Part shown: positions 8,516 to 53,314 of the stretch, piece after piece
Layout of the letters: each line of letters opens with the position of its first letter
How positions within the stretch are numbered: position 1 is the first letter of the stretch
Origin: Croceimicrobium hydrocarbonivorans
GTDB lineage: Bacteria > Bacteroidota > Bacteroidia > Flavobacteriales > Schleiferiaceae
Direction: 5' to 3'
Assembly: GCF_014524565.1 (NCBI RefSeq)
Contig: NZ_CP060139.1
Coordinates: 3,045,501-3,109,500 of the forward strand
DNA length: 64,000 nt
Position numbers and translations under genes: made by a program
The notes under the pieces: model-generated
Seen by the model: the letters and a program-made list of their open reading frames with translations, nothing else
The model's database searches: none
What the model was told of the DNA's origin: nothing

Positions 8516-11500
8516 ATGAATCTACGCTTACTCTACCGATTGTTTTTGAGTCTGCTTTTTGCCATTTGGGCAAGTGCGGCTTTTGGACAATTATCATCGG
8601 GTGTTAATGCACCCCATTGCGCTTTTACCGGTACCCTGGAAGTAGGAGATACCTTATTCTTCCGTTCTCTGGATACTGCGCTTACCAATCACAATCTTAA
8701 TTTTCAATGGTACACTTGCGATGATAAAAGTGGAACCGGACGCACTGCTATTTCTACTGCAACCGACAGTGCTTATATTCTCCGGGAAGCGGATACCGCC
8801 AAGTTTATCCAATTGGGAGTTTTTCCTCAAGGTGGTTATTATACCGGAGCTGAAATCAGAACCGCTACTTATGGGATTGTCTATAATCCACTTGAGTTCT
8901 TTTTAAGCTCTCCAGGGATGACAGCCCCTTATGCCTTCCGTTTAAGTCCGGGTGATATTCCTTCTAATGCACCTTTTCAGCTCAATACCGCTTCACTAGG
9001 AGTATTAATTCCTCAAATGTCTGGGGCTTATCCCAATGGTGATGACGTATATATCTATGGCTTTATTGAGCCTTTTTCTACCAATTCATCACAAAGAGCT
9101 TATGGCTATTACAATAGTGGATTTGGCTGTGTGTATAAATTTGATCTGTCCTTTTACAGCAAGAAGAGCACCGACTCGCAGCATGTGAAATTGGTTGATT
9201 TAAGTGGCTATATAAATGTTCAAGGATCCGCGGCCTATCCTCCCGGTTCAGGTTTAAGTCCAGATCATTTTAGATTCACTTGCAGTTCCTTGAACTTCAA
9301 TAATATGGCCGCTAGTAATAGTGTGATAGGAACCGTTAATACCTTTCTTTTAGGCTTTAAATTAAATCTGGCTTCCATTGGTATTGTTACCGCTTTGAAT
9401 ACCTCAGAAAGCACTAAAAACCATCTCCTTCAGGTAGAAACTGATACCGCGGATGGAACCTTGGATCGCATTCTGATAAAGGATATCAAGGATTTGAAAT
9501 TCCTGGATTTTGTTGTAGAATCCAGTGTAAGCCTAGAGAATGATATAGATGCCAGCGAAACCCAAACCTGGAATAATGGCAAAGGCTGGGAGCCTCTTTA
9601 CCGTCGTTTCAATGGTCTAGGCATGAGTCCGGATTTTAAGCCGGATCAAGTTGGAATTTATTTGGAAGGTGGAAATCACACGATTAAAGGCCTTTATATA
9701 AATCGACCCAACGAAGATGAAGTCGGAATTTTTCAAGAATTAGCAGGCGCTTCTTATGTTCGGAATCTAGCCTTGGAAGAGGTTGATATTAAGGGGAAAG
9801 ATAAAGTTGGTGCCATTGCTGGTAGCTCAGCAAGTAACTACTCCAACGATATCATAGCTGTAACCGGAAGTATTGAAGGTCAGAATTCGGTAGGAGCCTT
9901 ATTTGGCGAGGTAGAAATAGCCAAGAGCCTTAGTCTAAATTATGCTTATTCTACCGCCCAAACTCAAAGTGCAGATGGCTCCGGTGCCCTAATTGGGAAT
10001 GTAATTGGCAGTGCCAACCTGAATCAAGTATATGCCAGTGGCGCAGTTTCCGGAACCCGGGCCTTAGCCGGTGGTACAGGCGGAGTAGTGGCTACGGAAA
10101 GCTATTACAATAGTGATAGCGTAGCATCTTCCAGTCAAGGATTGCCATTAACCACTGCTCAAATGAAGCAGTTTAACAATTATAACAATTGGGATTTTTC
10201 GAATGTATGGGGAATCACGCCATTGGTAAATAATGGCTTTCCCATTTTAAGAGCATTTTACCCTGCTTTGACGGTCGATGTGCTAGCTAATCAAAATCCA
10301 TTCTGCCCAAGCGACAGCATCGGATCCATTCAAGCATATATCAATGGTGGAGCTGCGCCTTACCAGTTTAGCTGGGGGGATGGAGATACTAGTTTGCAAA
10401 GGACTGGATTAGCGGCTGGAAGCTATTCCTACCATGCTATCGATGCTCTGGGAGATACCTTAAATGGAAGTTTTAGCCTAAACGCATCAGACAGTATCGC
10501 CCCCAATTTTAATTTACCGGGCTTTACAACTAAGTATCTCGATGCCGCGGGAAGGCTGAATATTCAAGGTTCTGATTTCCTGAGCTACGCCTCCGATAAT
10601 TGCAAATTAGACTCTCTTTGGCTTTCCATCGATAGCCTCGATTGTTCGGTGATAAGCAGCGGGCCGGTGCCTGCCTCCGCCTACTTCGACGGAATTAATG
10701 ACTTTGCCTGGGTAAGCAATAATCCTTCTTTAAATTTTGATCAAGGGATTATCTCACTGTGGGTGAAGCCCGATTCTTATAATAGTAATGCCGGAATTAT
10801 CGCGATGCGTGGTAATACCAGTCGCTATTCTTTCCACTTAAATCAGAATGCTAATCAGCTGGGATTGTGGAATAACATTTCCTATAGCACTTTAGATTAT
10901 TCCAAAGGCTTTGATGCCGGTCAATGGTACCACATAGTAATAGTGATTAAGGGCACTACCGCTAATCCTGAGGTTTGGATAAATGGAGAAAACATAGGCA
11001 GCTTCACGGTTAACATCAATTTTGATATTAGCAATGAAAACTTTGTCTTAGGCTCCTCCAATAGTTTTGGCGAATTCTTTAAAGGAAGTATTGCTAATGT
11101 GGCGCTATATGATAGCCTGCTTAGCCCTTCTGATATGAACCTCTTATGGGCTCAGGATTCTTTAACTGAAATCCCTCACCTAGTAGCCTATTATCCTCTT
11201 TTAGAAACAGGCACGGTATTAAAAGATTATGGTCCAAATGCTTACGATGGACTCTTTGTGAATTGGAACTCTAGTGATCGTCAATTTAATGCCAAAGAAT
11301 TGTGGGTGTATGCTGAGGATCACAATGGTTTAATCGATTCTGCTCGCACCTGGATTTTTGCAAAAGACACCATTAAGCCTCAAATTACCTTTGTTCCAGC
11401 TAATATTTCAGTACAAGCTGATAGTAATTCCTGCGGCGCCATTGTAAATTATAGCCTGCCACAAGCCAGCGATAATTGTGCTTTAGCCAGTTTAAACCTT

Positions 11501-14500
11501 GTTTCCGGTTATGCCAGTGGAAGTGTATTTCCGGAAGGAAAAACCATTGTAACCTATGAGTTTAGAGATAGTAGCGGAAATGCCGAAACCTGCAGTTTTG
11601 AAGTTTTGGTTACCGATACTATCGCCCCTCAATTTCTGACTTGTCCTCAAGATCGAAATTTTGATGATTACTTTCATACCTGCGATTTTGAGCAAAGATT
11701 CCAAGCACCTAATTTTGATACAGCCTGCGCAGCTAAGGTTGATCACCAGATTACCCAAAGTAGTTTAACCACTGCCTTTTCTTTTAATGCCTCCAATAAG
11801 TTTGGTCCAGAGCCAACCGGGATCGTTCGCTTTTTTGATTTAGATCAGGATGGTATTCAAAACAATTATCATTTGAAGGGAATCACCTTTGGAATAGGTG
11901 CTGTTCCAGATGGAAATGTATATGAAGTGCGTATCTATCGTTTCAGCGAAGTTACCCATGGTGATAGCGTATTTGACTTCCTCTCTGACGAGAATCGAAT
12001 CGATTTAAATCGTTATCACCCGACCATCATCAGGACCAATCATTATACTCACAATCAAAGTTTCGGTTTACAAACTGTGCCTGTTGATTTGCAATTAATC
12101 CCTTCGGATAAAATCATCGTTGAGATTTTAGGTCCTGGAGTGGCGGGCTCCTTCGCTGGAAATACCGACTTAAATAACCAAACTGTGCCGGGCTATTGGG
12201 GCCGAAATGATGGATATGCCACGATTAACCCAGCTAACCGCTCAGGAGTTGTTCCGATTATTGCCCTGGAAGGTGAGGAGTATATCAATTTAAAAACGGT
12301 TCAATATGCCGGACCCGAATCAGGGACTTATTTACCCTTCGGTAAAACTGATATTGGCTATTACATAGAAGATGGTAGTGGTAACCGCGATAGCTGCTCC
12401 TATAGCTTCACGCTCAATGATTCATCTGCTGCAACTGATTTTGACATTTCAAGAGAAGTGGCTACCAGCGATACTACCTGTGATGCGCAATACAATTGGG
12501 GGCCAATTGAGAATTACTTTACCGAGTGCAATTTGGATACAGTAGTTCAATTAAGCGGATTGCCCTTGGATACCATTTATCCATTAGGTACCACGGTGAA
12601 TAGCTATCTTGTTTATGATACTTATGGTAATGTTTCCGATACTTCCTATCTGCGACTTACCGTAAAAGATCTAAGTAGTCCGGATGCGCAATTGGTATCC
12701 AATGTTCAAGTTTATCTGGATTCTAATGGACTGGGCTCTATCGACTCATGGAGCCTCGATAGTGGATCGACCGATAATTGCGGTTTAGTCGACAGTATTG
12801 TTTTGACCGACAATGTATTTACTTGTCGCGATGTGGATTCTTACTTTTCGGAAGGGGCCACCGCTTCCTATCTCAGCTTTGATGGAATAAATGATACGGT
12901 TACGATCGACCTGGATGGTGTGATTGATCAAATTGATACCTTCTCCATTCAGTATTACCACCGGCAAGATATTGTCAATAGACCCTATTCTCAGCTAATT
13001 GGCGGAGTTTTTAGCTTACGAAGCGGTACCGAGGAAATATTAGGATATAGTTTTTCGAATTTCTTCACCTTGGTGACCACTGGACCTACTGTAAGAGGAG
13101 CAGGTGTAGTGAGTGCCCATATGCCTTTTAATGTTTGGCATAAATTCACCTTCAGTTATGCTAAGCCTGATCTTAAAGTCTATCTCGATGATAATTTGAT
13201 TATCACTGCAAATTATGCCATCGATTCGTCTAAGGTTTCAAACCTAAATCTGGTATTGGGAAAGGCAGGGACTACGAATCCCAGTTTTAGTCCTTTAAGT
13301 AATGTAGACCTGGATGATTTTATCATATACGATACCCTTGCCGATGGCTTAACGAGTCCCGATCCCAGTCATATTCTCGCATCCTTTGGATTTAACCAAG
13401 CTGGCGATTCAGTATTGTTTGATCAGGGACCCGGTGCCTACCATGGGCAGCTGCACAACTTCGATGTGGATTCAGCCTGGCATAATGTGAGCGATACCTT
13501 ATTGGTTTATGTGCAAGATGAGGCCGGAAACCGTACGCCGGTAAATCTTCCTATTGATGTTATCGATACCATAGCACCTAGTATTCAGGTGCTGAATGCT
13601 GGCTATTATTTAGATAGCAATGCTCAATTTATCGTCGATTATAATTCGGTGATTTCCAATGTTTGGGAAGCTTGTGAGCTAGATACGGTATTCTGGAATG
13701 CGGATACTTTAACCTGTGCTGACCTCGGCTTAAACGAGATTCAGATCACGGCGAGCGATATTTATGGAAACAGTCGAACCAGCGTCGCCCAATTAACTTT
13801 ACTGGATAGCATTGCGCCAGCCGTTTATGCTAAAGGCATAGATCTTTTTTTAGATGCAAGCGGTCAAGCTTCGGTTTCAGCCTCCGAAGTTGATTCCAAT
13901 TCCTATGATCCTAATTGCAGCCTGGATACTTTGTATCTGAGCCAGACGGAATTTACATGCTCCGACCTGGGGACTCCAACGGTTTACCTTATCGGGATAG
14001 ACAATTCGGGTAATAAAGACAGTAGCCTGGTTGCCATTTCGGTTCTGGATACGGTGAAGCCGGATGTTCGGACACGAGATATTCAAATTTATCTGGATGC
14101 CAATGGTCAGGCTGCTATAGTGCCGGCCGATATTGATTCTGCTAGTACTAAACTCTGTGCGAATCTCAATCTTGATATTTCCCAAAATAACTTTAGTTGC
14201 GCTGATCTAGGAAGCAATACGGTTTGGCTTTTCGCCGATGATGGATTAGGGAATCGGGATAGTGCTAGCGCTCAAGTACTGGTTCTAGATACTCTTGCCC
14301 CTCAATTACAGGCCCTCAATCAGATCCTATACCTTGATAATGCTGGACAGGCAGGTTTAAGTGTTAATGAAGTGAATAATGCCAGTACCGATAACTGCGC
14401 TATCCAGCAAATTAGCATTTCCAAAACCCAGTTTGATTGTGATGATCTGGGAATTCAGAATTACTACCTAATTGCCAGTGATGCATCTGGAAATTCGGAC

Positions 14501-17500
14501 AGCATTTCCTTTAGCGTAGAAATTCGCGATACCATTAAGCCGGTGGCAGATGCCCGTAACAGAGTCCTGTATTTAGGGGCGGATGGAAGCGTAAGTCTCG
14601 ACCCTCAATCGGTAAACCGCGCCTCTGTTTCCAATTGTAATGTGAGCTATGCGCTAAGTCAATCGACCTTCACTTGTGCCGATGAAGGACTAAACTTAGA
14701 AACCTTCTATATCACAGACTTGGCCGGAAATCAAGATTCTGCGACCTTCCTGGTAGAAGTGCGCGATACCATTAGTCCAGTGGTTATTCCACGTAATATC
14801 ACCGTTCAATTAGGAGCAACCGGTCAGGTTAGTGTGGCTGCTTCTCAGGTAGATAGCGCCAGTTATGATAACTGCTCCAATCAATTGTTCTACTCCATTA
14901 GTAAGAGTAGTTTCAATTGTAATAATCTGGGTCTAAATACGGTAAGCTTAACCGCTACCGATGGTCAGGGTAATAGCACTACTGCTCAAGCTCAGATTTT
15001 GGTAGAAGACAATATTCTGCCTGTCGTGCGCTCACGTAACCTAAGCCTTTATTTGGATGCCAACGGAATGGCGAGCATCACAACCGGCATGCTTGATAAT
15101 GGCAGCACTGATAACTGTAGCATCGATTCCTTAGCCCTTTCGCAAAGCGATTTTAACTGTGCAGATTTAGGTCAGAATACCATTAGTTTCCAAGCTTTCG
15201 ACCAAAGTGGAAATTCCAATAGTACCAATGCCATCATTACGGTTATCGATACCATGGCTCCGGTCTTGAATACCCAATCCATTAATGTGTATCTCGATGC
15301 TAACGGTCAGGCTAGCATTACAGCCAATGATCTGGATAATGGTAGTACCGATAATTGCGCCATCCAAAGTTTACAGATCAGTCAAACAAGCTTTGATTGT
15401 GGCGATTTAGGTCAGGTGGCGATTCAATTTACTGCCAGCGATGCTTCCGGCAATAGCCGCAGCCAAATGCTAAATGTGATGGTGCTGGATACCATTTCAC
15501 CTATCGTAGTTGGAGGAAGCTTAAGCTTAAACCTCGATGCCATTGGTCAGGCTAGTATTAGCGCTGCTGATATCAATGCAAGTAGCTCTGATAATTGCGG
15601 AATCAGCCAGTGGAGTCTAAGTCAAACTAGCTTTGATTGCACAAACTTGGGTTCTAATACCATTAGTTTAACCGGTACCGATGCTTCCGGCAATAGTACA
15701 TCTGCAGATTGGACTATTAGCATTGTAGATAATGCCGCACCCACAGTACTAGCTCAAAACCAAACACTTTATCTGGATGCCAATGGCAGTGCCAGCTTAA
15801 GCGCTAGTCAGGTTGATGCCGGCTCCTCTGATAATTGCGGTATTCAAAATCTAAGCTTAAGTCAAAGTACTTTCGACTGCAGCGATATTGGTACCCTCAA
15901 CCTTAGCCTTTCGGCGGATGACGCCAGTGGCAATATGGCCAGTACCAATTTTGTAGCTACCGTATTAGATACTATGGCTCCAGTGTTGAGTACCCAATCC
16001 ATCAATGTGTACTTAGATGCCAATGGTCAGGCTACGATTAGTGCTACTGATTTGGATAATGGCAGCACAGATAATTGCGCGATTCAAGATTTACAAATCA
16101 GCCAAAGTAGTTTCGATTGCAGTGATTTGGGTAATCAGACCCTTACTTTCACCGCAGTAGATGTTAATGGTAACCAGCGTAGTGCCCAAGTAGGAATTAC
16201 CGTTCTGGATACCATTTCACCTCAGGTAGTTGGAGGAAGTTTAAGCTTAAACCTCGATGCCAATGGCCAGGCTAGTCTTACGGCCGGCGATATCAATGCA
16301 GGCAGCTCTGATAATTGCGGAATCAGCCAGTGGAGTCTAAGTCAGACTAGCTTTGATTGCAGCAACCTGGGTTCTAATACCATTAGTTTAACGGGTACAG
16401 ATGCTTCGGGTAATAGTACATCTGCCGATTGGACTATTAGCATTGTAGATAATGCCGCACCCACAGTACTGGCTCAAAACCAAACGCTCTATCTGGATGC
16501 CAATGGCAATGCTAGCTTAAGCACCAGCCAGGTTGATGCTGGCTCTTATGATAATTGCGGCATTCAAAATCTAAGCTTAAGTCAAAGTTCTTTCAACTGC
16601 AGCGATATTGGTACCCTCAGCCTCAGCCTTACGGCGGATGATGCCAGTGGCAATATGGCCAGCGCCAATTTTGTAGCTGCGGTATTAGATACTATGGCTC
16701 CGGTACTAAGTACCCAGTCTATTAATGTGTATTTGGATGCCAATGGTCAGGCTACGATTAGTGCTACTGATTTGGATAATGGTAGCACAGATAATTGCGC
16801 GATTCAAGATTTACAAATCAGCCAAAGCAGTTTCGATTGCAGTGATTTGGGTAATCAGACCCTTACTTTCACGGCCGTAGATGTAAATGGCAACCAGCGT
16901 AGTACCCAGGTAGGAATTACCGTTCTGGATACAGTTTCGCCCGTTGTTCCTGGCGGAAGCTTCACCTTGAATTTGGATGCCAATGGAGCGGCAAGTTTAA
17001 GTCCAGCTGACATTAATAGCAATGCCAGTGATAATTGTGGGGTTATATCCTGGAGCCTAAGCCAGACTAGCTTCTCTTGTGCTGATGTGGGTTCTAATAC
17101 AGTGAGTCTCACTGCTACTGACGCATCAGGCAACAGCCAAACTACCAATTATACTATTCTGGTAGAGGATGTTTTAGCTCCGGTCTTAAACCTTCAAAAT
17201 ATTACTGTTTACCTCAATGTCAATGGCATGCGAGCAGTGGCCGCCACGGAAGTAGATAATGGCAGCAGCGACAATTGTTCGATTGCCAGTCGGGTGCTGG
17301 ATATCGATACCTTCGACTGTGCTGATTTAGGTCAAAACCTGGTGAACTTTACCGCCACGGATGTGAATGGCAATGCCGCTTCGCAAAATGTGATTATCAC
17401 GGTTAAGGATACCATCAGCCCCAGCATTGTAAATCTTCCGGCCAATATCACGGCTTATACCGATGCCAATCAATGCGGAACCATTGTACAATGGCCAGCC

Positions 17501-19096
17501 ATTTTGGGTAGCGATAATTGTGGCAGTGCTACGGTAAGTACCTCGCAAACCAATGGCGGACTTTTCGCGAAAGGTTTAACAACCGTGAATGTCTTGGTGC
17601 AGGATGCCAATGGCAATAGTCAAAGCGGAAGCTTTAGCATTAATGTTTTGGATACCATTGCTCCTCTAATTAGCAATGTACCGCAGGTGTATACGGTATT
17701 ACCTAATGCCGCATCTTGTGACGCTGGTGTAAACTGGATTCCTCCGGTGGCTAGCGATAATTGCGGAACCGCTACCCTTACGAGTAATTATGCTCCGGGT
17801 GCCACCTTGCCGGTGGGTACCACAACAATTGTGTACACCGCCACCGATGCCGATGGTAATAGTCGTAGTGTAAGCTTTGATGTAACCGTTACTGATGCGA
17901 TTGCACCCCAGTTTAGCAATGTACCCGCCGATATTGTACAAGCCAATGATGCCGGTCAATGTGGGGCCAATGTAAATTGGACCGCTCCTAATGCTACGGA
18001 TAACTGTACGGTAAGCACCTTTAGCAGTAGTCATAATTCCGGCGATTTCTTCGCTATTGGAACTACGACCGTTACGTATACCGCTAGCGATGCGGCGGGT
18101 AATCAAACTAGCATAAGCTTCGATATCACTGTAGAGGATCAGGAGAAACCTGTAGTAAGTTCAGTGCCTGCAAATGATACGGTAGGCCAATGTGGTGCAG
18201 CCTATGTGTACAGCCTACCAGTGGCGACCGATAATTGTGGTACTGTAAACGTTCAGCAAATCGCCGGATTAGCTCCTGGAAACGTATTCCCCATCGGGGT
18301 AACCCAGAACAGCTTCCGTATTAGCGATGCTGCTGGAAATGATACGGTGGTTGGCTTTACGGTAGTGGTGATTCCTCAAGGTCAGGCTAAGTTGCCAGAC
18401 TTATTAGAGATTTGTGCTAATGCTCCGGCAGTGGATATTACCGAAGGACAAGCCAGTATTAATTGGTCTGGTCCAGGGATTATCAATAGCGGAACCACCT
18501 TCGATCCGGCTCGCGCAGGGACCGGCAGAAAAACCCTCACTTACACCTTTGTAGATGACTATGGTTGTTCGGTAAGTGGTTCGATTATCGTAACCGTATT
18601 ACCGGTGCCAAGCACTCCACAGATTGTGCAGGTTGCTTCGAATACCCTGTCTACCACTCAGACTTATTCTACTTATCAGTGGTATCGAGATGGAGTAGCG
18701 ATTCCGGGTGCCGTGAATCAGAATTACTCCTACACCCAGAGTGGACATTATCAGGTGATTGTAGGAAATATTTCCGGTTGTGAGGTATTTGGTGCAGGCT
18801 ATGCGATTGGACCGATCCACGGTGGTATTGGGGTAGACGAATTCAATTGGTCGGATATGCAAGTGTATCCGAATCCGAATGATGGATTGTTTACCATCGA
18901 TTTTGCCGGCCTCACGAAAGAGAATATGAAGGTTCAAGTGCTTTCTACCGATGGAAAATTGGTTTATGAAAGTCAACAGAAGCTGAATGCTGAAAGCCAG
19001 ATCCGCATTGATCTGCGGGGCTTACCGGCTGCAGTTTACTATCTCCGTGTCTCCAATGGCGCGATCCGAGAAACACGCAAGTTGATCATTTACTAA
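8516..19096 (+). CDS. Giant T9SS-secreted repetitive surface protein (SprB, LamG and HYR domains)
   Basis: A 3,526-residue exported protein. Domains in order: signal peptide (1-24); N-terminal beta region and GLUG-like segment (about 390-480, VGIFQELAGASYVRNLALEE); a SprB-like repeat (about 585-655, GGAAPYQFSWGDGDTSLQRT); a LamG lectin-like domain (about 722-925); a HYR domain (about 946-1038); a second LamG (about 1449-1655); 16 uninterrupted repeats of about 80 residues (1684-2964) with consensus YLDANGQASI, STDNC, SQTSFDCSDLG and DASGN; four HYR domains (2965-3288); an Ig-like linker; and a type A T9SS sorting domain (from VYPNPNDGLFTIDF to RKLIIY). Each repeat keeps two cysteines, probably a disulfide. 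A gliding or adhesion role is inferred by analogy with SprB. An OmpA-family gene follows after 19 bp. Confidence 0.9.
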   Translation: MNLRLLYRLFLSLLFAIWASAAFGQLSSGVNAPHCAFTGTLEVGDTLFFRSLDTALTNHNLNFQWYTCDDKSGTGRTAISTATDSAYILREADTAKFIQLGVFPQGGYYTGAEIRTATYGIVYNPLEFFLSSPGMTAPYAFRLSPGDIPSNAPFQLNTASLGVLIPQMSGAYPNGDDVYIYGFIEPFSTNSSQRAYGYYNSGFGCVYKFDLSFYSKKSTDSQHVKLVDLSGYINVQGSAAYPPGSGLSPDHFRFTCSSLNFNNMAASNSVIGTVNTFLLGFKLNLASIGIVTALNTSESTKNHLLQVETDTADGTLDRILIKDIKDLKFLDFVVESSVSLENDIDASETQTWNNGKGWEPLYRRFNGLGMSPDFKPDQVGIYLEGGNHTIKGLYINRPNEDEVGIFQELAGASYVRNLALEEVDIKGKDKVGAIAGSSASNYSNDIIAVTGSIEGQNSVGALFGEVEIAKSLSLNYAYSTAQTQSADGSGALIGNVIGSANLNQVYASGAVSGTRALAGGTGGVVATESYYNSDSVASSSQGLPLTTAQMKQFNNYNNWDFSNVWGITPLVNNGFPILRAFYPALTVDVLANQNPFCPSDSIGSIQAYINGGAAPYQFSWGDGDTSLQRTGLAAGSYSYHAIDALGDTLNGSFSLNASDSIAPNFNLPGFTTKYLDAAGRLNIQGSDFLSYASDNCKLDSLWLSIDSLDCSVISSGPVPASAYFDGINDFAWVSNNPSLNFDQGIISLWVKPDSYNSNAGIIAMRGNTSRYSFHLNQNANQLGLWNNISYSTLDYSKGFDAGQWYHIVIVIKGTTANPEVWINGENIGSFTVNINFDISNENFVLGSSNSFGEFFKGSIANVALYDSLLSPSDMNLLWAQDSLTEIPHLVAYYPLLETGTVLKDYGPNAYDGLFVNWNSSDRQFNAKELWVYAEDHNGLIDSARTWIFAKDTIKPQITFVPANISVQADSNSCGAIVNYSLPQASDNCALASLNLVSGYASGSVFPEGKTIVTYEFRDSSGNAETCSFEVLVTDTIAPQFLTCPQDRNFDDYFHTCDFEQRFQAPNFDTACAAKVDHQITQSSLTTAFSFNASNKFGPEPTGIVRFFDLDQDGIQNNYHLKGITFGIGAVPDGNVYEVRIYRFSEVTHGDSVFDFLSDENRIDLNRYHPTIIRTNHYTHNQSFGLQTVPVDLQLIPSDKIIVEILGPGVAGSFAGNTDLNNQTVPGYWGRNDGYATINPANRSGVVPIIALEGEEYINLKTVQYAGPESGTYLPFGKTDIGYYIEDGSGNRDSCSYSFTLNDSSAATDFDISREVATSDTTCDAQYNWGPIENYFTECNLDTVVQLSGLPLDTIYPLGTTVNSYLVYDTYGNVSDTSYLRLTVKDLSSPDAQLVSNVQVYLDSNGLGSIDSWSLDSGSTDNCGLVDSIVLTDNVFTCRDVDSYFSEGATASYLSFDGINDTVTIDLDGVIDQIDTFSIQYYHRQDIVNRPYSQLIGGVFSLRSGTEEILGYSFSNFFTLVTTGPTVRGAGVVSAHMPFNVWHKFTFSYAKPDLKVYLDDNLIITANYAIDSSKVSNLNLVLGKAGTTNPSFSPLSNVDLDDFIIYDTLADGLTSPDPSHILASFGFNQAGDSVLFDQGPGAYHGQLHNFDVDSAWHNVSDTLLVYVQDEAGNRTPVNLPIDVIDTIAPSIQVLNAGYYLDSNAQFIVDYNSVISNVWEACELDTVFWNADTLTCADLGLNEIQITASDIYGNSRTSVAQLTLLDSIAPAVYAKGIDLFLDASGQASVSASEVDSNSYDPNCSLDTLYLSQTEFTCSDLGTPTVYLIGIDNSGNKDSSLVAISVLDTVKPDVRTRDIQIYLDANGQAAIVPADIDSASTKLCANLNLDISQNNFSCADLGSNTVWLFADDGLGNRDSASAQVLVLDTLAPQLQALNQILYLDNAGQAGLSVNEVNNASTDNCAIQQISISKTQFDCDDLGIQNYYLIASDASGNSDSISFSVEIRDTIKPVADARNRVLYLGADGSVSLDPQSVNRASVSNCNVSYALSQSTFTCADEGLNLETFYITDLAGNQDSATFLVEVRDTISPVVIPRNITVQLGATGQVSVAASQVDSASYDNCSNQLFYSISKSSFNCNNLGLNTVSLTATDGQGNSTTAQAQILVEDNILPVVRSRNLSLYLDANGMASITTGMLDNGSTDNCSIDSLALSQSDFNCADLGQNTISFQAFDQSGNSNSTNAIITVIDTMAPVLNTQSINVYLDANGQASITANDLDNGSTDNCAIQSLQISQTSFDCGDLGQVAIQFTASDASGNSRSQMLNVMVLDTISPIVVGGSLSLNLDAIGQASISAADINASSSDNCGISQWSLSQTSFDCTNLGSNTISLTGTDASGNSTSADWTISIVDNAAPTVLAQNQTLYLDANGSASLSASQVDAGSSDNCGIQNLSLSQSTFDCSDIGTLNLSLSADDASGNMASTNFVATVLDTMAPVLSTQSINVYLDANGQATISATDLDNGSTDNCAIQDLQISQSSFDCSDLGNQTLTFTAVDVNGNQRSAQVGITVLDTISPQVVGGSLSLNLDANGQASLTAGDINAGSSDNCGISQWSLSQTSFDCSNLGSNTISLTGTDASGNSTSADWTISIVDNAAPTVLAQNQTLYLDANGNASLSTSQVDAGSYDNCGIQNLSLSQSSFNCSDIGTLSLSLTADDASGNMASANFVAAVLDTMAPVLSTQSINVYLDANGQATISATDLDNGSTDNCAIQDLQISQSSFDCSDLGNQTLTFTAVDVNGNQRSTQVGITVLDTVSPVVPGGSFTLNLDANGAASLSPADINSNASDNCGVISWSLSQTSFSCADVGSNTVSLTATDASGNSQTTNYTILVEDVLAPVLNLQNITVYLNVNGMRAVAATEVDNGSSDNCSIASRVLDIDTFDCADLGQNLVNFTATDVNGNAASQNVIITVKDTISPSIVNLPANITAYTDANQCGTIVQWPAILGSDNCGSATVSTSQTNGGLFAKGLTTVNVLVQDANGNSQSGSFSINVLDTIAPLISNVPQVYTVLPNAASCDAGVNWIPPVASDNCGTATLTSNYAPGATLPVGTTTIVYTATDADGNSRSVSFDVTVTDAIAPQFSNVPADIVQANDAGQCGANVNWTAPNATDNCTVSTFSSSHNSGDFFAIGTTTVTYTASDAAGNQTSISFDITVEDQEKPVVSSVPANDTVGQCGAAYVYSLPVATDNCGTVNVQQIAGLAPGNVFPIGVTQNSFRISDAAGNDTVVGFTVVVIPQGQAKLPDLLEICANAPAVDITEGQASINWSGPGIINSGTTFDPARAGTGRKTLTYTFVDDYGCSVSGSIIVTVLPVPSTPQIVQVASNTLSTTQTYSTYQWYRDGVAIPGAVNQNYSYTQSGHYQVIVGNISGCEVFGAGYAIGPIHGGIGVDEFNWSDMQVYPNPNDGLFTIDFAGLTKENMKVQVLSTDGKLVYESQQKLNAESQIRIDLRGLPAAVYYLRVSNGAIRETRKLIIY
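13565..17407 (+). repeat. Tandem array of sixteen ~240-bp coding repeats
   Basis: Units begin at DTIAP-like codons at 13565, 13805 and so on to 17168, each close to 240 bp (80 codons). Every unit carries a DxxG loop near position 16-20, DNC near position 36, a Cys near position 51 and SGN near position 70. The three-unit block beginning at 15248 recurs at 15968 and 16688, a higher-order period of exactly 720 bp. The array lies wholly within the giant gene. Confidence 0.9.
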
Positions 19097-47494: not shown

Positions 47495-50400
47495 ATGAAA
47501 AAAATTACTCTGCTCTTTCTGAGCATTTTTGCTCTAAGTGCTCAGGCTCAGACTTATAATATGATTCGTAATAGTAGTGACACTGCAAGTGATTGCAGCG
47601 GAACTCTATATGATCATGGCGGACCTACCGGTAGTTATTACAATTCCTCCAGCGATAATTTCTACATCCTGCCTCAAGGCGGGAGCTCAATCGACATTAC
47701 TTTTACTTCCTTCGGAACTGAGTCTTGTTGTGATCGAGTGCGTATTTACGATAATGTAAATGGTACTTTAATTGGTACCTATGGCGGTTACAGCTTACCC
47801 AATGGTGGTGCCCCCATTAATGTGCCCAGCGGAGAAGCACGCATTCTTTTTACTTCCGACATTTCTATTACCGGATCAGGTTTTGCCCTAAGTTGGACTG
47901 CAGGTGGTACTGCTAATCCTACTGCTTCATTTAGCCCCTCAGTAAGCAGTGCAGCTTTAATGCAACCAGTAACTTTTAACAATACCTCCACCGGTGGCGG
48001 TTCCAGCACCTGGTATTTTGGAGATGGAGATTCAGCCTCTACTAATAATCCAGTACATGCCTATAGCAGTCCGGGAACCTATACCATTACTTTAATTCAG
48101 AGCAATTGCTACGGTGCGGATACAACTACTGGTACCCTAAGCGTGCAAGCTGCAGCTACTGTTTCGGTAAGTCCGGATACCCTTGCAGGCTCCGCTCCTT
48201 GTGGAGGCATTTACCGCGATACCTTGCAGTTTAGCTACCTCAGTGGTGGGGCTGCTTTATACGATATTAATGTTCGTGCCTTAACCGATCAGAATTACCT
48301 CACGGCAAATTTCGAAAGTTCTTTAAGTCCATTTGTGCGATCAACCACGGCTCCTACTACCTTTAATTCCAATGTGGTTTTAGGAGGAGCCGGACAGGGG
48401 AATGCTTATCTCCAATTGAGTGGTTATGCGGCCATGCAAGATGGTGTTTATGCCAATGTAAATGCCAGCGATGCCAACTACTTCAGTTTTATGATTTCGG
48501 TGAATTCATCTTCACGCTCCTATGTACAATTGGGAGATGAAATTGGTGGCTATTACTATACACTCTTGGGTTTGGAAGCTTATTACGGTAACCTCCGCAT
48601 TCATGGTAATTATACCTACACTGTAGCCTTAAGTCCGAGTGTCTGGCATCAGGTGGAAGTGAAGAATATCGTCTATACCGCACGTACCTGTGATGTTTAT
48701 CTGGATGGTGTTTTGGCCGCGGGTGGACTTAGCTTCAATTACTATTTGGCTAATGAGATTGATCGCATTGATATTGCGAATTACAATAGCTCGGCTAATG
48801 TGGCCTACGATGCCTTTAACTTGAAGAAGATTGGTGATGTTTCTCTGGTGAGCCTGAGCGATACCTTAGGTGTTACCACCGGTACGCAAGATATTGCCGT
48901 GGAAGTTGATTTAGCTGGAGCGATTGCCGGCCTTCAGCAATATATTCTGGAAATTGCTACCAATGCTACCGGTGCAGATAGCTTAATTCAAGTGCCCCTA
49001 AATGTTACAGTGACCGGAACTCCGGTTTATAGCGCTAGTGCAGCTTGTTTCAATTTTGATACCGCCTACATCGGGATTGCTCAAAATGATTCTCTGCTGA
49101 TCTTCAACCAGGGTTGCGATACCATGGACCTGAACAGCTTGACTACTTCCAATACCGAATTTAGCTTGAGTCAAACGGCACTGAATATCGCACCCGGCGA
49201 TTCAGCTTGGCTCTATATCAGCTATTTACCCGCGAACATCGGTTTAGTTGATGATACCTTATTCCTCAATGGTAACCTGGATACCGCTATATGCCTTTCG
49301 GCGGAAGCCTTTACCGCACCGGCTATTGCCTTCGATAGTGCTTCATATACAGTAAATTCTTATGGCTGTAATGATAGTATCCCCTTCCAGTTTTACCTCT
49401 ATAATCAAGGCTCTGGGGCAAATTTGAACTGGACCTTAATTGGCGGAAACAGTCTTTTTGATGATTTTGAAAATGGCTTCGATCCTAGCATCTGGACCAC
49501 CCATGGTTCTAACCAAATCTTTAATGGTTGCTATGAGCATTCAGGAACCAGTGCCCTCTCTATGATGGGAACCCTTCGAACTTCTGAAACTGTAATGCTC
49601 AATCTTTATCAAGGGGATTCAGTTGGCTTTTGGGCCTTCCCCGGAAACGGTGGTGGAAGCGGTTGTGAAAACCCTGACGGTGGTGAGGACATGCATGTGC
49701 AATACCGTTTAAGCGGTGCTAGCTTCTGGACTACCATTGGAACGATTTACAATTATAATACCGCGGCCGCTTATTATTCCTTCCCAATCCCGGTAAGTGG
49801 TCAAATGCAAGTGCGCTTGTATCAAAGTTCTTATACCGGTTCTACCTACGATCATTATCGTATTGATGATTTCCGCATTGTAAGCAGCTCTGCTTCTTCA
49901 GATTTCAATCCGAATACCGGCTCAACCGTAGCTGGTGACTCCGTTTTAATTTCAGGATACCTTCAAGTTGGCAACCTCTATACAGGAAGCTATCCACGTA
50001 GTATCCGTGTTCAAAGTGATGATCCTTCTCATCCCGATACTTTAATTACGGTAAACATTAATGTATACGGTGAACCAGATTTATGGGCATCTGCAGCTTG
50101 CATGACCTACGATACCTTGTACACCGGAGCAAGCAGCATTGATTCGGTAATGATTATTAATCAGGGTTGTGATGATCTCAATCTCACTGCTTATAGTTTA
50201 GGTGGTACTCAATTCGGACATAGCTTATCTCCCTTAACTATTGTTCCTGAAGATACCGCCTGGTTAGCGGTGAGCTTTAATCCGGATGGAACCTTACTCG
50301 GTTTAATTCGCGATACCCTAACCGTTAGCAATAATGATAGCATTTGGAAGCTTTGCCTGGAAGGCTTTGCTCAAGGGGCACCAGTGGCATCCTTAAATCC

Positions 50401-53314
50401 GGATTCACTTTCAGTAACCGTTACATATTGCGGTGATTCGATTAGTATTCCGGTATACCTTCGCAATAGTGGTTTAAGTGGCCTCAACTTCGATTATATT
50501 CAAGGAAATGGAAGTAATGGCAAGATTAACGTTGGGGTGGTAGGAAGCTTTGTGTACTCTACCGAGAGAACCAATATCTACAATATTGCCCTGTCTATGC
50601 CTGAGGTGAATTTGGTATATGTTAATGCCAGTTCAGAGGCCCAGATGACACAAGAATTAGATACTATCGATGTATTGATCGTCCCTGAAAGTAGCTCCAT
50701 TTCTATGAGTACTACCTTCGGTCCGGCTTACCAAAACTTTGTGAGCAATGGTGGAGTAATCATATTTGGATACCAGGCCGTAGGATATTCAACGGCCTAT
50801 AATATTATGCCGATCAGCAATAGTTGGAACCCAGGCTCGCCCATTCCAATTTCAATGCCTTCGCATCCGATTGCATCCGGCTTACCTTCAACCGGTATGT
50901 CTTATTTAAGTGCTACCCAAAGAGCCGTTTTTGTAAATACCGCTGGTCTGGAGCGTATTATCGGTGCATTTGGAACGGATGAAGCAGTCGTAGCGGCCCA
51001 GCCTTATGGCGATGGTATAGCGATTCATATTGGTTATGACTTCTTCCAAACCAATACCGATTTGGAGAATGTATTGAAGAACTCCATTATTTGGGGAGCC
51101 AGCAGAACCGGTGCTCCGGATTTCATTAGCGCCAGTCCTGATTCAGGATTAGTAGCGGTGGGTGATTCTGTATTGATTAATATCAATATTAATACCGCCG
51201 GTATTAGCAATGGTACCTACGATTACGATCTATTCTTCCAAACTAATGATCCGGCAAATAATCCTCTTCGTTTACCCTTGCACTTAGTAGTTAATGGTTT
51301 AGCCAAGGCTCAGGTGCTAGATAGTACTTGCATCAGCTTCGGTTCATCTTTACAAGGTGCTGCGGTTAAGGATACATTTGAAATTTATAATGAGGGTTGC
51401 GATACCCTGGATATTACATCCTATCTGGCTAATAACAGTGATTTTACCATCAGCAATATTCCTATGAATGTAGCTCCTGGTGATACCGCCAAATTAGAAG
51501 TGATATTCTCACCTTTCTCCGTAGGTCTTAGTACAGATACCTTGGAAGTAAGCACCAATGATACCACCATATATATCTGTGTAAGTGGCATTGGAGTAGG
51601 AGCCGCCTTACCAAGAGTAGAAGATGACACCATTTATTATCGCTTGCAGAAATGTAAGGTGATTGGCAATAAGCAAATCAAGGTGAAAAACTTAGGCCAA
51701 GGTCAAATGAACTTTGATATTCAATTTGGTCGTTTCTCCGACAGTTCTCAAATCGCCTACAATGTACCTGGTGCTAGCACCTTACATAACTTTAGCGGAT
51801 TGCCTAATACCGCAGATAGTATCAAATTGCGCATCATTCTGAATGGTGATTACGATACCTATTCAGAGCGCGCTACCCTTTATTTGGATGGTAATTACTG
51901 GCAAACCCTTTACGATAACAACCGCTTTTATCAATTAGATACCCTGGAAATCTTTGTGGTGGGTACCCAAGTTGCGACCTTATTAGCAGATGGCATGCTG
52001 GATGTAGGTCTCTACAATGCTTCCAGCGTTGATGGTGGTGCCGGATCTTTCCACCGCGTAGAATTGGAAGTGGTGCAAACGGTAAACTGGGTTTCGGTAG
52101 TAGGCGCAAACGCCGGTTCCATTCCTGCCAATGATTCGGTAAACCGGAACTTACTCTTTAATGCAGCTCTATTGCCACTCGGTACTCACTATACTACCAT
52201 GGTGGTTAATAACAACAGTCCTAGTCAGCCCAATTATCGCAAGCCGGTTAAGTTTGATGTAGTGGCAGAGCCAGAAATGGTATTGAGTGATACCTGTGCT
52301 TATTTCACTCTAACGCGATTAGGTGATACCACCAGTCGTTCGGTTACTATCTACAATGATGGATGTATGCCGCTGGTGATTAGCAGTATGACCTCTACCT
52401 CCAATCAGTTTAAGATCTATCAAAATTCTGCCACCATACCGGTAGGGGATAGCTTGGTATTGGATATCGACTTCATTCCGACTTCCGTAAGTAGTTTCTC
52501 AGCTTCTATTTTCATAATAAGTAATGATAGTAACCGTACCATTTGCTTGAACGGGCAATCTGGATCTATGCCGGTTGCAGACTTCAGCTTTAGTGATGAG
52601 AATATCTGTATTGGTGAGGTTTCCTTTAATAATAGTAATTCGCAGTATTTCAATACCCTCTATTGGGATTTTGGTGATGGTACTTTCTCTAATCAGAATA
52701 ATCCAACTCATGTATTCCCGAATCCTGGTACCTACCGTGTAATTCTGCGTACCACAAATACCTTAGGTTTTGATACCATTTCTAAACTGGTAACGGTAAA
52801 TCCATTGCTAGTGAACTTCGGAATGAGCAATGATACTATACAGTTGAGTGATACCGCTTTCTTTAGTGATAGCACCCCTAATGCTGTGACCTGGATTTGG
52901 GACTTTGGTGATGGATCCAGCTCTACCCAACAGAATCCTAGTCACCAGTATACAGCTCAAGGCTTGTACAATGTGAAATTAACGGTGATCGATAATCGTT
53001 CTTGCAGCAATACCCTAACTAAGCAAATCCGAGTAGAAAATAAGATTGGCTTAGTTGAATGGCAATTGGAGAATCAGTGGAGCTTGTATCCAAACCCGAA
53101 TGAGGGTCGCTTTAAACTGCGCATGGAGCAGGGAGATTGGTCAGGCTTAGAAATCCAGATTCTGGATGCTCAGGGTCGTGTATTAGCGGCTCAGAAAGGC
53201 GGTCAGGAATCTGAACTTGACTTTGATTTAAAATTAGCCAGTGGGGTTTATCACTTGCAAATCTTGAAGCAGGGTAGCCTGATGGATCAGACTCGAGTGG
53301 TGATTCAACACTAA
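47495..53314 (+). CDS. Giant T9SS-secreted surface protein (CUB, PKD, split BACON-like and choice-of-anchor domains)
   Basis: A 1,939-residue exported protein. Signal peptide (1-20); CUB-like domain (about 25-140, FGTESCCDRVRIYDNVNG); PKD (about 141-219, STWYFGDGDSASTNNPVHAY); four super-repeats (about 223-608, 609-965, 966-1375 and 1376-1695); two PKD domains (about 1694-1849); and a type A sorting domain (WSLYPNPNEGRFKLRM to TRVVIQH). Each super-repeat is a BACON/Ig-like domain cut by an inserted domain, followed by a choice-of-anchor domain with a conserved Cys-x-x-Phe start (for example ACFNFDTAYIGIAQNDSLLI and NQGCDTMDL). The inserts differ: LamG-like, jelly-roll, GATase-like (about 1008-1205) and another jelly-roll. 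Adhesion or cell-surface binding is likely. A terminator follows. Confidence 0.88.
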   Translation: MKKITLLFLSIFALSAQAQTYNMIRNSSDTASDCSGTLYDHGGPTGSYYNSSSDNFYILPQGGSSIDITFTSFGTESCCDRVRIYDNVNGTLIGTYGGYSLPNGGAPINVPSGEARILFTSDISITGSGFALSWTAGGTANPTASFSPSVSSAALMQPVTFNNTSTGGGSSTWYFGDGDSASTNNPVHAYSSPGTYTITLIQSNCYGADTTTGTLSVQAAATVSVSPDTLAGSAPCGGIYRDTLQFSYLSGGAALYDINVRALTDQNYLTANFESSLSPFVRSTTAPTTFNSNVVLGGAGQGNAYLQLSGYAAMQDGVYANVNASDANYFSFMISVNSSSRSYVQLGDEIGGYYYTLLGLEAYYGNLRIHGNYTYTVALSPSVWHQVEVKNIVYTARTCDVYLDGVLAAGGLSFNYYLANEIDRIDIANYNSSANVAYDAFNLKKIGDVSLVSLSDTLGVTTGTQDIAVEVDLAGAIAGLQQYILEIATNATGADSLIQVPLNVTVTGTPVYSASAACFNFDTAYIGIAQNDSLLIFNQGCDTMDLNSLTTSNTEFSLSQTALNIAPGDSAWLYISYLPANIGLVDDTLFLNGNLDTAICLSAEAFTAPAIAFDSASYTVNSYGCNDSIPFQFYLYNQGSGANLNWTLIGGNSLFDDFENGFDPSIWTTHGSNQIFNGCYEHSGTSALSMMGTLRTSETVMLNLYQGDSVGFWAFPGNGGGSGCENPDGGEDMHVQYRLSGASFWTTIGTIYNYNTAAAYYSFPIPVSGQMQVRLYQSSYTGSTYDHYRIDDFRIVSSSASSDFNPNTGSTVAGDSVLISGYLQVGNLYTGSYPRSIRVQSDDPSHPDTLITVNINVYGEPDLWASAACMTYDTLYTGASSIDSVMIINQGCDDLNLTAYSLGGTQFGHSLSPLTIVPEDTAWLAVSFNPDGTLLGLIRDTLTVSNNDSIWKLCLEGFAQGAPVASLNPDSLSVTVTYCGDSISIPVYLRNSGLSGLNFDYIQGNGSNGKINVGVVGSFVYSTERTNIYNIALSMPEVNLVYVNASSEAQMTQELDTIDVLIVPESSSISMSTTFGPAYQNFVSNGGVIIFGYQAVGYSTAYNIMPISNSWNPGSPIPISMPSHPIASGLPSTGMSYLSATQRAVFVNTAGLERIIGAFGTDEAVVAAQPYGDGIAIHIGYDFFQTNTDLENVLKNSIIWGASRTGAPDFISASPDSGLVAVGDSVLINININTAGISNGTYDYDLFFQTNDPANNPLRLPLHLVVNGLAKAQVLDSTCISFGSSLQGAAVKDTFEIYNEGCDTLDITSYLANNSDFTISNIPMNVAPGDTAKLEVIFSPFSVGLSTDTLEVSTNDTTIYICVSGIGVGAALPRVEDDTIYYRLQKCKVIGNKQIKVKNLGQGQMNFDIQFGRFSDSSQIAYNVPGASTLHNFSGLPNTADSIKLRIILNGDYDTYSERATLYLDGNYWQTLYDNNRFYQLDTLEIFVVGTQVATLLADGMLDVGLYNASSVDGGAGSFHRVELEVVQTVNWVSVVGANAGSIPANDSVNRNLLFNAALLPLGTHYTTMVVNNNSPSQPNYRKPVKFDVVAEPEMVLSDTCAYFTLTRLGDTTSRSVTIYNDGCMPLVISSMTSTSNQFKIYQNSATIPVGDSLVLDIDFIPTSVSSFSASIFIISNDSNRTICLNGQSGSMPVADFSFSDENICIGEVSFNNSNSQYFNTLYWDFGDGTFSNQNNPTHVFPNPGTYRVILRTTNTLGFDTISKLVTVNPLLVNFGMSNDTIQLSDTAFFSDSTPNAVTWIWDFGDGSSSTQQNPSHQYTAQGLYNVKLTVIDNRSCSNTLTKQIRVENKIGLVEWQLENQWSLYPNPNEGRFKLRMEQGDWSGLEIQILDAQGRVLAAQKGGQESELDFDLKLASGVYHLQILKQGSLMDQTRVVIQH

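Follow-up and report, generated by a model that had tools for sequence, protein, structure and literature searches.

The closest described counterparts of the protein presented here are the split domains of RTX adhesins, on which Graham et al. reportedly worked in 2024 (doi 10.1002/prot.26689). According to the excerpts on which we draw, split Ig-like domains of the adhesins AhLap, FrhA and MpIBP make ligand-binding domains stand out from the axis of the protein (PMC12077191, PMC10865825), and in the AhLap construct 9CSE a single strand of the split domain precedes the exit of the chain (PMC12077191). Domain insertion in general follows an A1-B-A2 architecture, for which the excerpted text gives medians of 115 residues for the insert and 199 residues for the host (PMC13114784). 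As regards the ASH/BACON_2 domains of T9SS proteins, the titles and abstract openings listed, mostly of open literature, contained no description of such inserts.

The window, that is, the whole stretch of 64,000 nucleotides of Croceimicrobium hydrocarbonivorans DNA analysed, is part of a single-contig genome of 4.04 Mb. An ORF at 47495-53314, on the plus strand like all of its features below, encodes a protein of 1939 aa, and orthologs of the same family align over nearly its full length. From the N- to the C-terminus the layout comprises a CUB domain (aa 32-133; 47588-47893; PF00431, E 4.1e-6), a PKD domain, four super-repeats, two more PKD domains (aa 1693-1850; 52571-53044; PF18911, which matches three stretches across the protein) and a C-terminal T9SS sorting domain of type A (aa 1864-1938; 53084-53308). 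The last of these scores above both cut-offs (PF18962, 35.6 bits against 27; TIGR04183, 32.9 bits against 23), which marks the protein as predicted T9SS cargo. A gene 96 percent identical to this one is present in the Flavobacteriales MAG UBA7878. A close relative harbours two adjoining gene copies, 96 and 56 percent identical to that of the window (G001:C22:30890-42820; L002, L031), and both specify the same four insert types.

With a probability of about 0.72, the central part of the protein consists of four host-spacer pairs, eight consecutive ASH/HYDIN-type Ig domains in all, the hosts carrying complete foreign domains and the rod displaying these inserts. The chain of each host would exit after the third main strand, in the C-D loop (strand letters A-G are our own reading of the alignments), fold a complete foreign domain and then come back to complete its own Ig fold. 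The partner of the host in each pair, which has no insert, would act as a spacer holding neighbouring inserts apart. The Ig row may form a rod from which the four inserts stand out sideways, and the T9SS domain would direct the protein to the cell surface or export it. The site and the relation of host to insert are established at the level of sequence, spacing and homologs and, for repeat 4, also by superposition of a predicted model; the function would be that of a secreted rod displaying several binding domains, comparable to RTX split domains but with another insertion point and secretion route.

An Ig-like host interrupted by a complete second domain is common to RTX split domains and to this protein, where the repeat 4 model, the spacing and intact homologs bear it out. 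As far as the excerpts on RTX adhesins go, both also have several different inserts in one long secreted protein and uninterrupted Ig-like domains between the hosts. Whereas RTX adhesins depend on type I secretion, the 1939-aa protein has a T9SS type A C-terminal sorting domain instead; and whereas the break point in AhLap 9CSE, as excerpted, falls after the first strand, here it falls after the third main strand. Proteins of the present type also differ from RTX adhesins in that filled and empty Ig domains mostly alternate, and ligand binding by their inserts is putative. The protein is not filed as a member of the RTX split-domain group because of the third-strand break and the T9SS signal; its host is ASH/HYDIN/BACON_2-like, the comparison with the RTX host being one of descriptions rather than of structures. 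With ASH/HYDIN/PapD-like Ig domains (HYDIN, CEP192, CFAP65, FimC/PapD), host and spacer share sequence profile, fold and tandem arrays. Here, however, every second domain has a large insert in one loop, whereas the matching chaperones and 2qsv are uninterrupted; the distinction from BACON_2 (PF19190) is likewise that natural hosts here are interrupted. Relative to the medians excerpted from PMC13114784 the sizes are reversed, with hosts of about 100 residues and inserts with a median of 210.

Domain boundaries were set from the sequence and from an alignment of 16 orthologs. The fronts of the super-repeats start at aa 224, 610, 965 and 1373; a front half of 40-42 aa is followed by the insert (184, 151, 201 and 118 aa, respectively), a rear half of 57-62 aa and a spacer of 100-105 aa. 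Front and rear strings quoted in the initial annotation as recurring four times are all present in the ORF. In the first super-repeat, the host halves (aa 224-264, 48164-48286, from the sequence, the ortholog alignment and iterated profiles; aa 449-508, 48839-49018, from the latter two) enclose a ConA/LamG-like insert (aa 265-448; 48287-48838) that, in the model of aa 224-964, superposes on 5mqr (Z 19.6, 163 aligned, 2.2 Å) and resembles ConA-like domains of sialidases and laminarinases by structure comparison. The uninterrupted spacer that follows (aa 509-609; 49019-49321) is choice-of-anchor D / HYDIN-like by family and iterated profiles. The halves of host 2 (aa 610-651, 49322-49447; aa 803-859, 49901-50071; both from the ortholog alignment and iterated profiles) surround a jelly-roll resembling a reelin subrepeat (aa 652-802; 49448-49900; 2ddu, Z 17.0, 146 aligned, 2.4 Å). 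This insert scores 22.4 bits against PF21471 (E 1.1e-4), under the cut-off of 27, and has no relatives by sequence among solved structures at E up to 1. Spacer 2 (aa 860-964; 50072-50386) is recognized by Pfam and iterated profiles, as is spacer 3 (aa 1269-1372; 51299-51610).

Host 3 consists of a front half at aa 965-1005 (50387-50509; Pfam match of the spliced host, ortholog alignment, iterated profiles) and a rear half at aa 1207-1268 (51113-51298; included in the Pfam match of the spliced host). Its insert (aa 1006-1206; 50510-51112) has a ThuA/class-I-GATase-like fold (1t0b, Z 18.1, 192 aligned, 3.0 Å) and nothing above cut-off in Pfam. Host 4 was delimited by pilus-chaperone matches (model 408-628 = aa 1372-1592), which give the front half (aa 1373-1412; 51611-51730) and, by superposition, the rear half (aa 1531-1592; 52085-52270), and skip the insert (aa 1413-1530; 51731-52084). 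In the model insert 4 contains eight strands and one short helix, and none of the structure matches listed covers it; because it is mostly beta and unmatched in this list, a jelly-roll is plausible rather than established. Spacer 4 (aa 1593-1692; 52271-52570) closes the series. The four different inserts proposed initially are therefore borne out by fold for LamG, the reelin-like jelly-roll and the GATase-like domain, with the second jelly-roll as a plausible fourth. Outside the insert, each super-repeat (48164-52570) has four cysteines, of which the host front contributes one and the spacer three. Of the 16 in all, 13 are invariant across 15 aligned sequences; these cysteines might form disulfides within or between adjacent Ig domains.

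Sequence comparison and predicted models support the view that each super-repeat contains one ASH/HYDIN (PapD-like) Ig domain interrupted after the third main strand. Once its halves are spliced, host 3 matches PF22544, the HYDIN/CFA65-like Ig family, across the junction (residues 3-93, E 3.8e-7). At E up to 10, host 2 matches TRAP_beta alone (E 0.058) and hosts 1 and 4 match zero Pfam families; these three, having no clear family, are assigned through orthologs, spacing and models. Twenty spliced hosts chosen from the 16 orthologs share invariant columns at Cys15, Gly74, Asn85 and Asp86 (first-row numbering). At E up to 0.1, 13 of them match PF22544, which places them among ASH/HYDIN-like Ig domains, and 11 match BACON_2, the one score listed being 28.6 bits for a host derived from G035 (curated cut-off 25). 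For the four hosts of the window itself the corresponding counts are one (host 3) and zero. The description of the repeats as BACON-like thus has some foundation, but the HYDIN-like family accounts for more of the hosts. A spliced-host profile aligns at positions 18-97 with residues 135-217 of 2qsv, a solved and uninterrupted protein of Porphyromonas gingivalis (E 5.4e-5). The same profile matches HYDIN over the whole chain at E 2.2e-18, yet each single stretch falls below threshold. Uninterrupted host copies occur in other Bacteroidota (G110 and G305), where profile positions 1-102 are contained in 300 bases with 77.5 and 75.6 bits.

AlphaFold2 models were obtained for aa 965-1692 (mean pLDDT 82.6, pTM 0.47) and aa 224-964 (mean pLDDT 82.3, pTM 0.36); domain orientation and insert projection are uncertain in both because pTM is low. 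Structure comparisons are given as residue ranges. Eleven first domains of pilus chaperones (FimC/PapD) superpose on repeat 4 with Z 11.5-12.2, 99-103 aligned residues and 2.1-2.4 Å, among them 1qun_A (Z 12.2, 103 aligned, 2.3 Å) and 1kiu_A (Z 12.1, 102 aligned, 2.1 Å). They cover about model residues 407-628 (aa 1372-1592, some 221 residues), and host 4 without its insert amounts to 102 residues. Prediction of each super-repeat had been suggested as a check on whether the halves form separate complete domains: in repeat 4, the sole host resolved on its own, the chaperones match front and rear together and skip the insert. Mouse sperm CFAP65 (9ijj_h, chain 69-487 / 69-489) spans each whole model with 382 and 385 residues aligned, against 409 and 406 residues for four Ig domains without inserts, at large rmsd values of 13.6 and 30.7 Å. 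The PapD-like beta-sandwich of hosts 1-3 is suggested by these whole-model alignments, that of host 4 by its individual superposition. Ciliary proteins top the Foldseek matches listed for the models, with TM-scores of at most 0.46. Three main strands precede the insert in the models, and repeats 3 and 4 have in addition a three-residue strand there.

A survey of the spacing between fronts and rears covered 530 ORFs from the window and 204 loci, with a separate profile for each half, run leniently (E up to 1 each). Uniterated profiles, trained on hosts only, paired 183 fronts and rears; the gap is -3 to 10 in 24 of these pairs, 44-45 in two and above 90 in 157. Iterated profiles produced 448 pairs in 102 ORFs, of which 220 are short (-20 to 59), 223 are long and five, with strongly negative gaps, fall in neither class. 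Iteration recruited spacers, 178 of the short-gap pairs overlapping spacer-profile matches; the uniterated run gives the count before this step. The spacing is bimodal, near 0 or 103-311 residues, with four pairs between. Mispaired fronts and rears of neighbouring intact domains were considered as a source of the long class and ruled out, since none of the 223 inserts matches the host, front, rear or spacer profiles at E < 1e-3; ten of the 223 filled pairs overlap spacer-profile matches. The 60 analysed stretches were taken from the top-scoring matches listed in a genome profile search that scored at most 12 candidates per genome and are not a random sample; the contig scan favours LamG-bearing proteins because it was run with one peptide pattern, derived from the LamG-like insert.

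A choice-of-anchor D / HYDIN-like Ig domain closes every super-repeat, and PF22544 and NF012200 each match four stretches of the protein. Spacer 4 superposes on the ASH domain of CEP192 (6fvi, Z 13.7, 99 aligned, 1.4 Å) and on HYDIN (2ys4, Z 13.0, 98 aligned, 1.7 Å). Host and spacer match the same Pfam family, and a joined-host profile finds one spacer of the window protein weakly (E 5.4e-4). The choice-of-anchor domain noted initially behind each super-repeat is indeed found four times; it is not, however, a different kind of domain but an uninterrupted relative of the host. Iterated front and rear profiles detect eight consecutive domains with gaps of 186, 0, 146, 0, 202, 0, 116 and 0, so that the empty site occurs four times within the protein itself. 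Judged by sequence, the spacer belongs to the superfamily of the host and the eight Ig domains alternate between filled and empty.

Alternation was also counted outside the family set, which comprises all loci L102-L121 and the genome-search orthologs, was omitted from the identity and alternation counts and, being so defined, contains some non-orthologs (e.g. L113 and L114). Across 33 distinct runs of at least three domains (39 before runs of similar spacing were collapsed), 104 of 128 transitions alternate, whereas 2000 shuffles average 68.3 and never exceed 82. Three of the 33 runs, which do not alternate, are uninterrupted arrays of L199. In contrast to the filled rows, this locus has long host-type arrays, none with a detected insert, and 11 domains in one run.

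The 223 inserts measure 103-311 aa (median 210) and form 26 BLAST clusters, or 20 groups at an hhalign probability of 70 or more; such profile grouping is insensitive for single-member clusters, and several beta groups may share a fold. Representatives of 20 of the 26 clusters were scanned against Pfam: three exceed a curated cut-off (NIDO, DUF4394, Laminin_G_3) and most have no match at E up to 0.01. The kinds identified are ConA/LamG-like, reelin-like jelly-roll, ThuA/GATase-like, nidogen-like (partial) and DUF4394; ThuA/GATase-like inserts of other proteins remain below the Pfam cut-off and the reelin-like insert exceeds it in L036. Different insert clusters are held by 52 of the 58 ORFs with at least two filled hosts, orthologs included. 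Seven filled hosts are found in a 4072-aa protein (L180:3064-15279, minus strand) and four in one of 3591 aa (L177:2386-13158, minus strand), several hosts of these ORFs carrying ThuA-like inserts.

The joined-host profile matches in 155 of 392 evenly drawn Bacteroidota genomes and in 23 of 59 relatives, and two filled hosts each were seen in MAGs labelled Latescibacterota (L122) and KSB1 (L124). In the genome of the window, all seven matches of the ASH host at E up to 1e-3 lie inside the ORF at 47495-53314. In the preferred reading, the host loop has served as a socket over evolution: modules duplicate as pairs, and a host lineage sometimes comes to carry an unrelated insert. We see even chances that ASH-type Ig domains generally serve as natural sockets through their C-D loop, in secreted proteins across Bacteroidota and in some neighbouring phyla; a socket Ig and a spacer Ig would then be the repeating unit of rods displaying many unrelated folds, and host lineages would exchange inserts. 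If so, the specificity of surface proteins would evolve by replacing the insert, not the rod.

The opposing view, which we consider unlikely, holds that host and insert are a fixed, anciently fused module that is duplicated and shuffled whole, its loop taking no new domains at a relevant rate. The ortholog family lends it weight. Among the 17 members with four inserts, the insert type is the same in all 17 at positions 1 and 4, in 16 at position 2 and in 15 at position 3, and insert length per position varies little in 16 orthologs (118-126 at position 4), with the exception of G021 at position 2 (216). As all 17 members agree in the types of inserts 1 and 4, exchange appears rare in this family; the earlier proposal of a scaffold that accepts foreign domains thus fits long times, but the insert set and its order are mostly kept among orthologs. 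Host identity points both ways. Outside the family set, hosts of different ORFs are more alike when they share an insert type (mean 0.341, n 785) than when they do not (0.260, n 7347), as a fixed module would predict; within one ORF, with relatedness ignored, hosts with different inserts (0.292, n 85) also exceed this background, and those with the same insert reach 0.330 (n 39). In favour of a fixed module is also a thermolysin-type protease of G047, in which the ThuA-like, LamG-like and reelin-like inserts recur in that order, which is not the order of the window; against it are the 26 sequence clusters at one site. The protease (L036:1067-8770, plus strand) belongs to the M4 thermolysin-like type and combines PKD, CUB, GEVED and T9SS domains with its three insert-bearing host modules.

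At position 3 of the family, 16 of 19 proteins have the ThuA-like insert, and the other three (G019, G024 and L107) have a cluster 13 domain unrelated to it (hhalign probability 0.09); of the two partial orthologs, L107 differs and L112 keeps the ThuA-like insert. Hosts plus spacers of G019 and G024 fall inside the supported R3 clade (99/93), from whose tree L107 is absent, and their spacers find other R3 spacers as best matches. Either the insert was exchanged, or an ancestral five-module protein or R3 duplicates underwent differential loss. Under both histories R3-type hosts carry two unrelated inserts, which speaks against a fixed module. A clean swap at position 2 of G021, where cluster 13 is also present, was considered and is weakened, as the tree places that host with R3 (90/89, long branch); this grouping again suits the fixed module. 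Host orthology is not clean, because the tree puts two R3 modules, those of G011 and G029, with R2.

Within the preferred reading of a displaying rod, the inserts would be the working, probably ligand-binding parts: two resemble lectin or jelly-roll modules, and the ligands of the lectin-like insert are probably glycans. A protein that is mainly a structural or matrix rod, with inserts that provide bulk or stability instead of ligand binding, is a doubtful alternative. It can draw on the zero binding or catalytic residues demonstrated in the inserts and on insert 3, ThuA/GATase-like by fold, yet without a Pfam match above cut-off; the likeness of insert 1 to domains of sialidases and laminarinases argues otherwise, as does the fact that insert types differ while host and spacer are kept. 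The idea that the insert lies between two small domains of which front and rear each form one, to which low pTM and the detection of each half by its own profile might lend colour, is extremely improbable and was dismissed in view of the chaperone superposition on repeat 4, the intact homologs and the bimodal spacing.

To our knowledge, many long T9SS proteins are without known function. The display reading offers a rule for reading them: Ig domains alternate between filled and empty, and the segment from the third host strand to the rear half would be a complete inserted, probably functional domain, which could be excised for testing. The split-domain idea would reach beyond RTX adhesins to a further phylum and a different secretion route, and natural pairs of empty and filled domains would permit study of how a small beta-sandwich copes with inserts of roughly double its own size.

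A second long protein of the window, a giant of 3526 aa at 8516-19096, contains HYR-like 80-aa repeats broken at profile positions 53-57 around two LamG-like domains, and perhaps a third broken repeat around a domain near aa 1086-1254. A profile built from 14 uninterrupted 80-aa repeats gives front matches (profile up to 53-54) at 659-712 and 1394-1440; behind each come a LamG-like domain and a weak rear match (profile from 57; E 0.004 and 0.00094 for the rear by itself, in a search space of one sequence). Joined front and rear gave no single continuous match to the HYR-like profile, and the ASH host profile has none in the giant at E up to 10. The initial annotation had seen the same principle at work in both proteins: the breaks around LamG agree with this, but the rear matches are weak, the joined match is not continuous and the host is not ASH. 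The HYR-like repeat is a possible second insert-bearing host family in the same genome.
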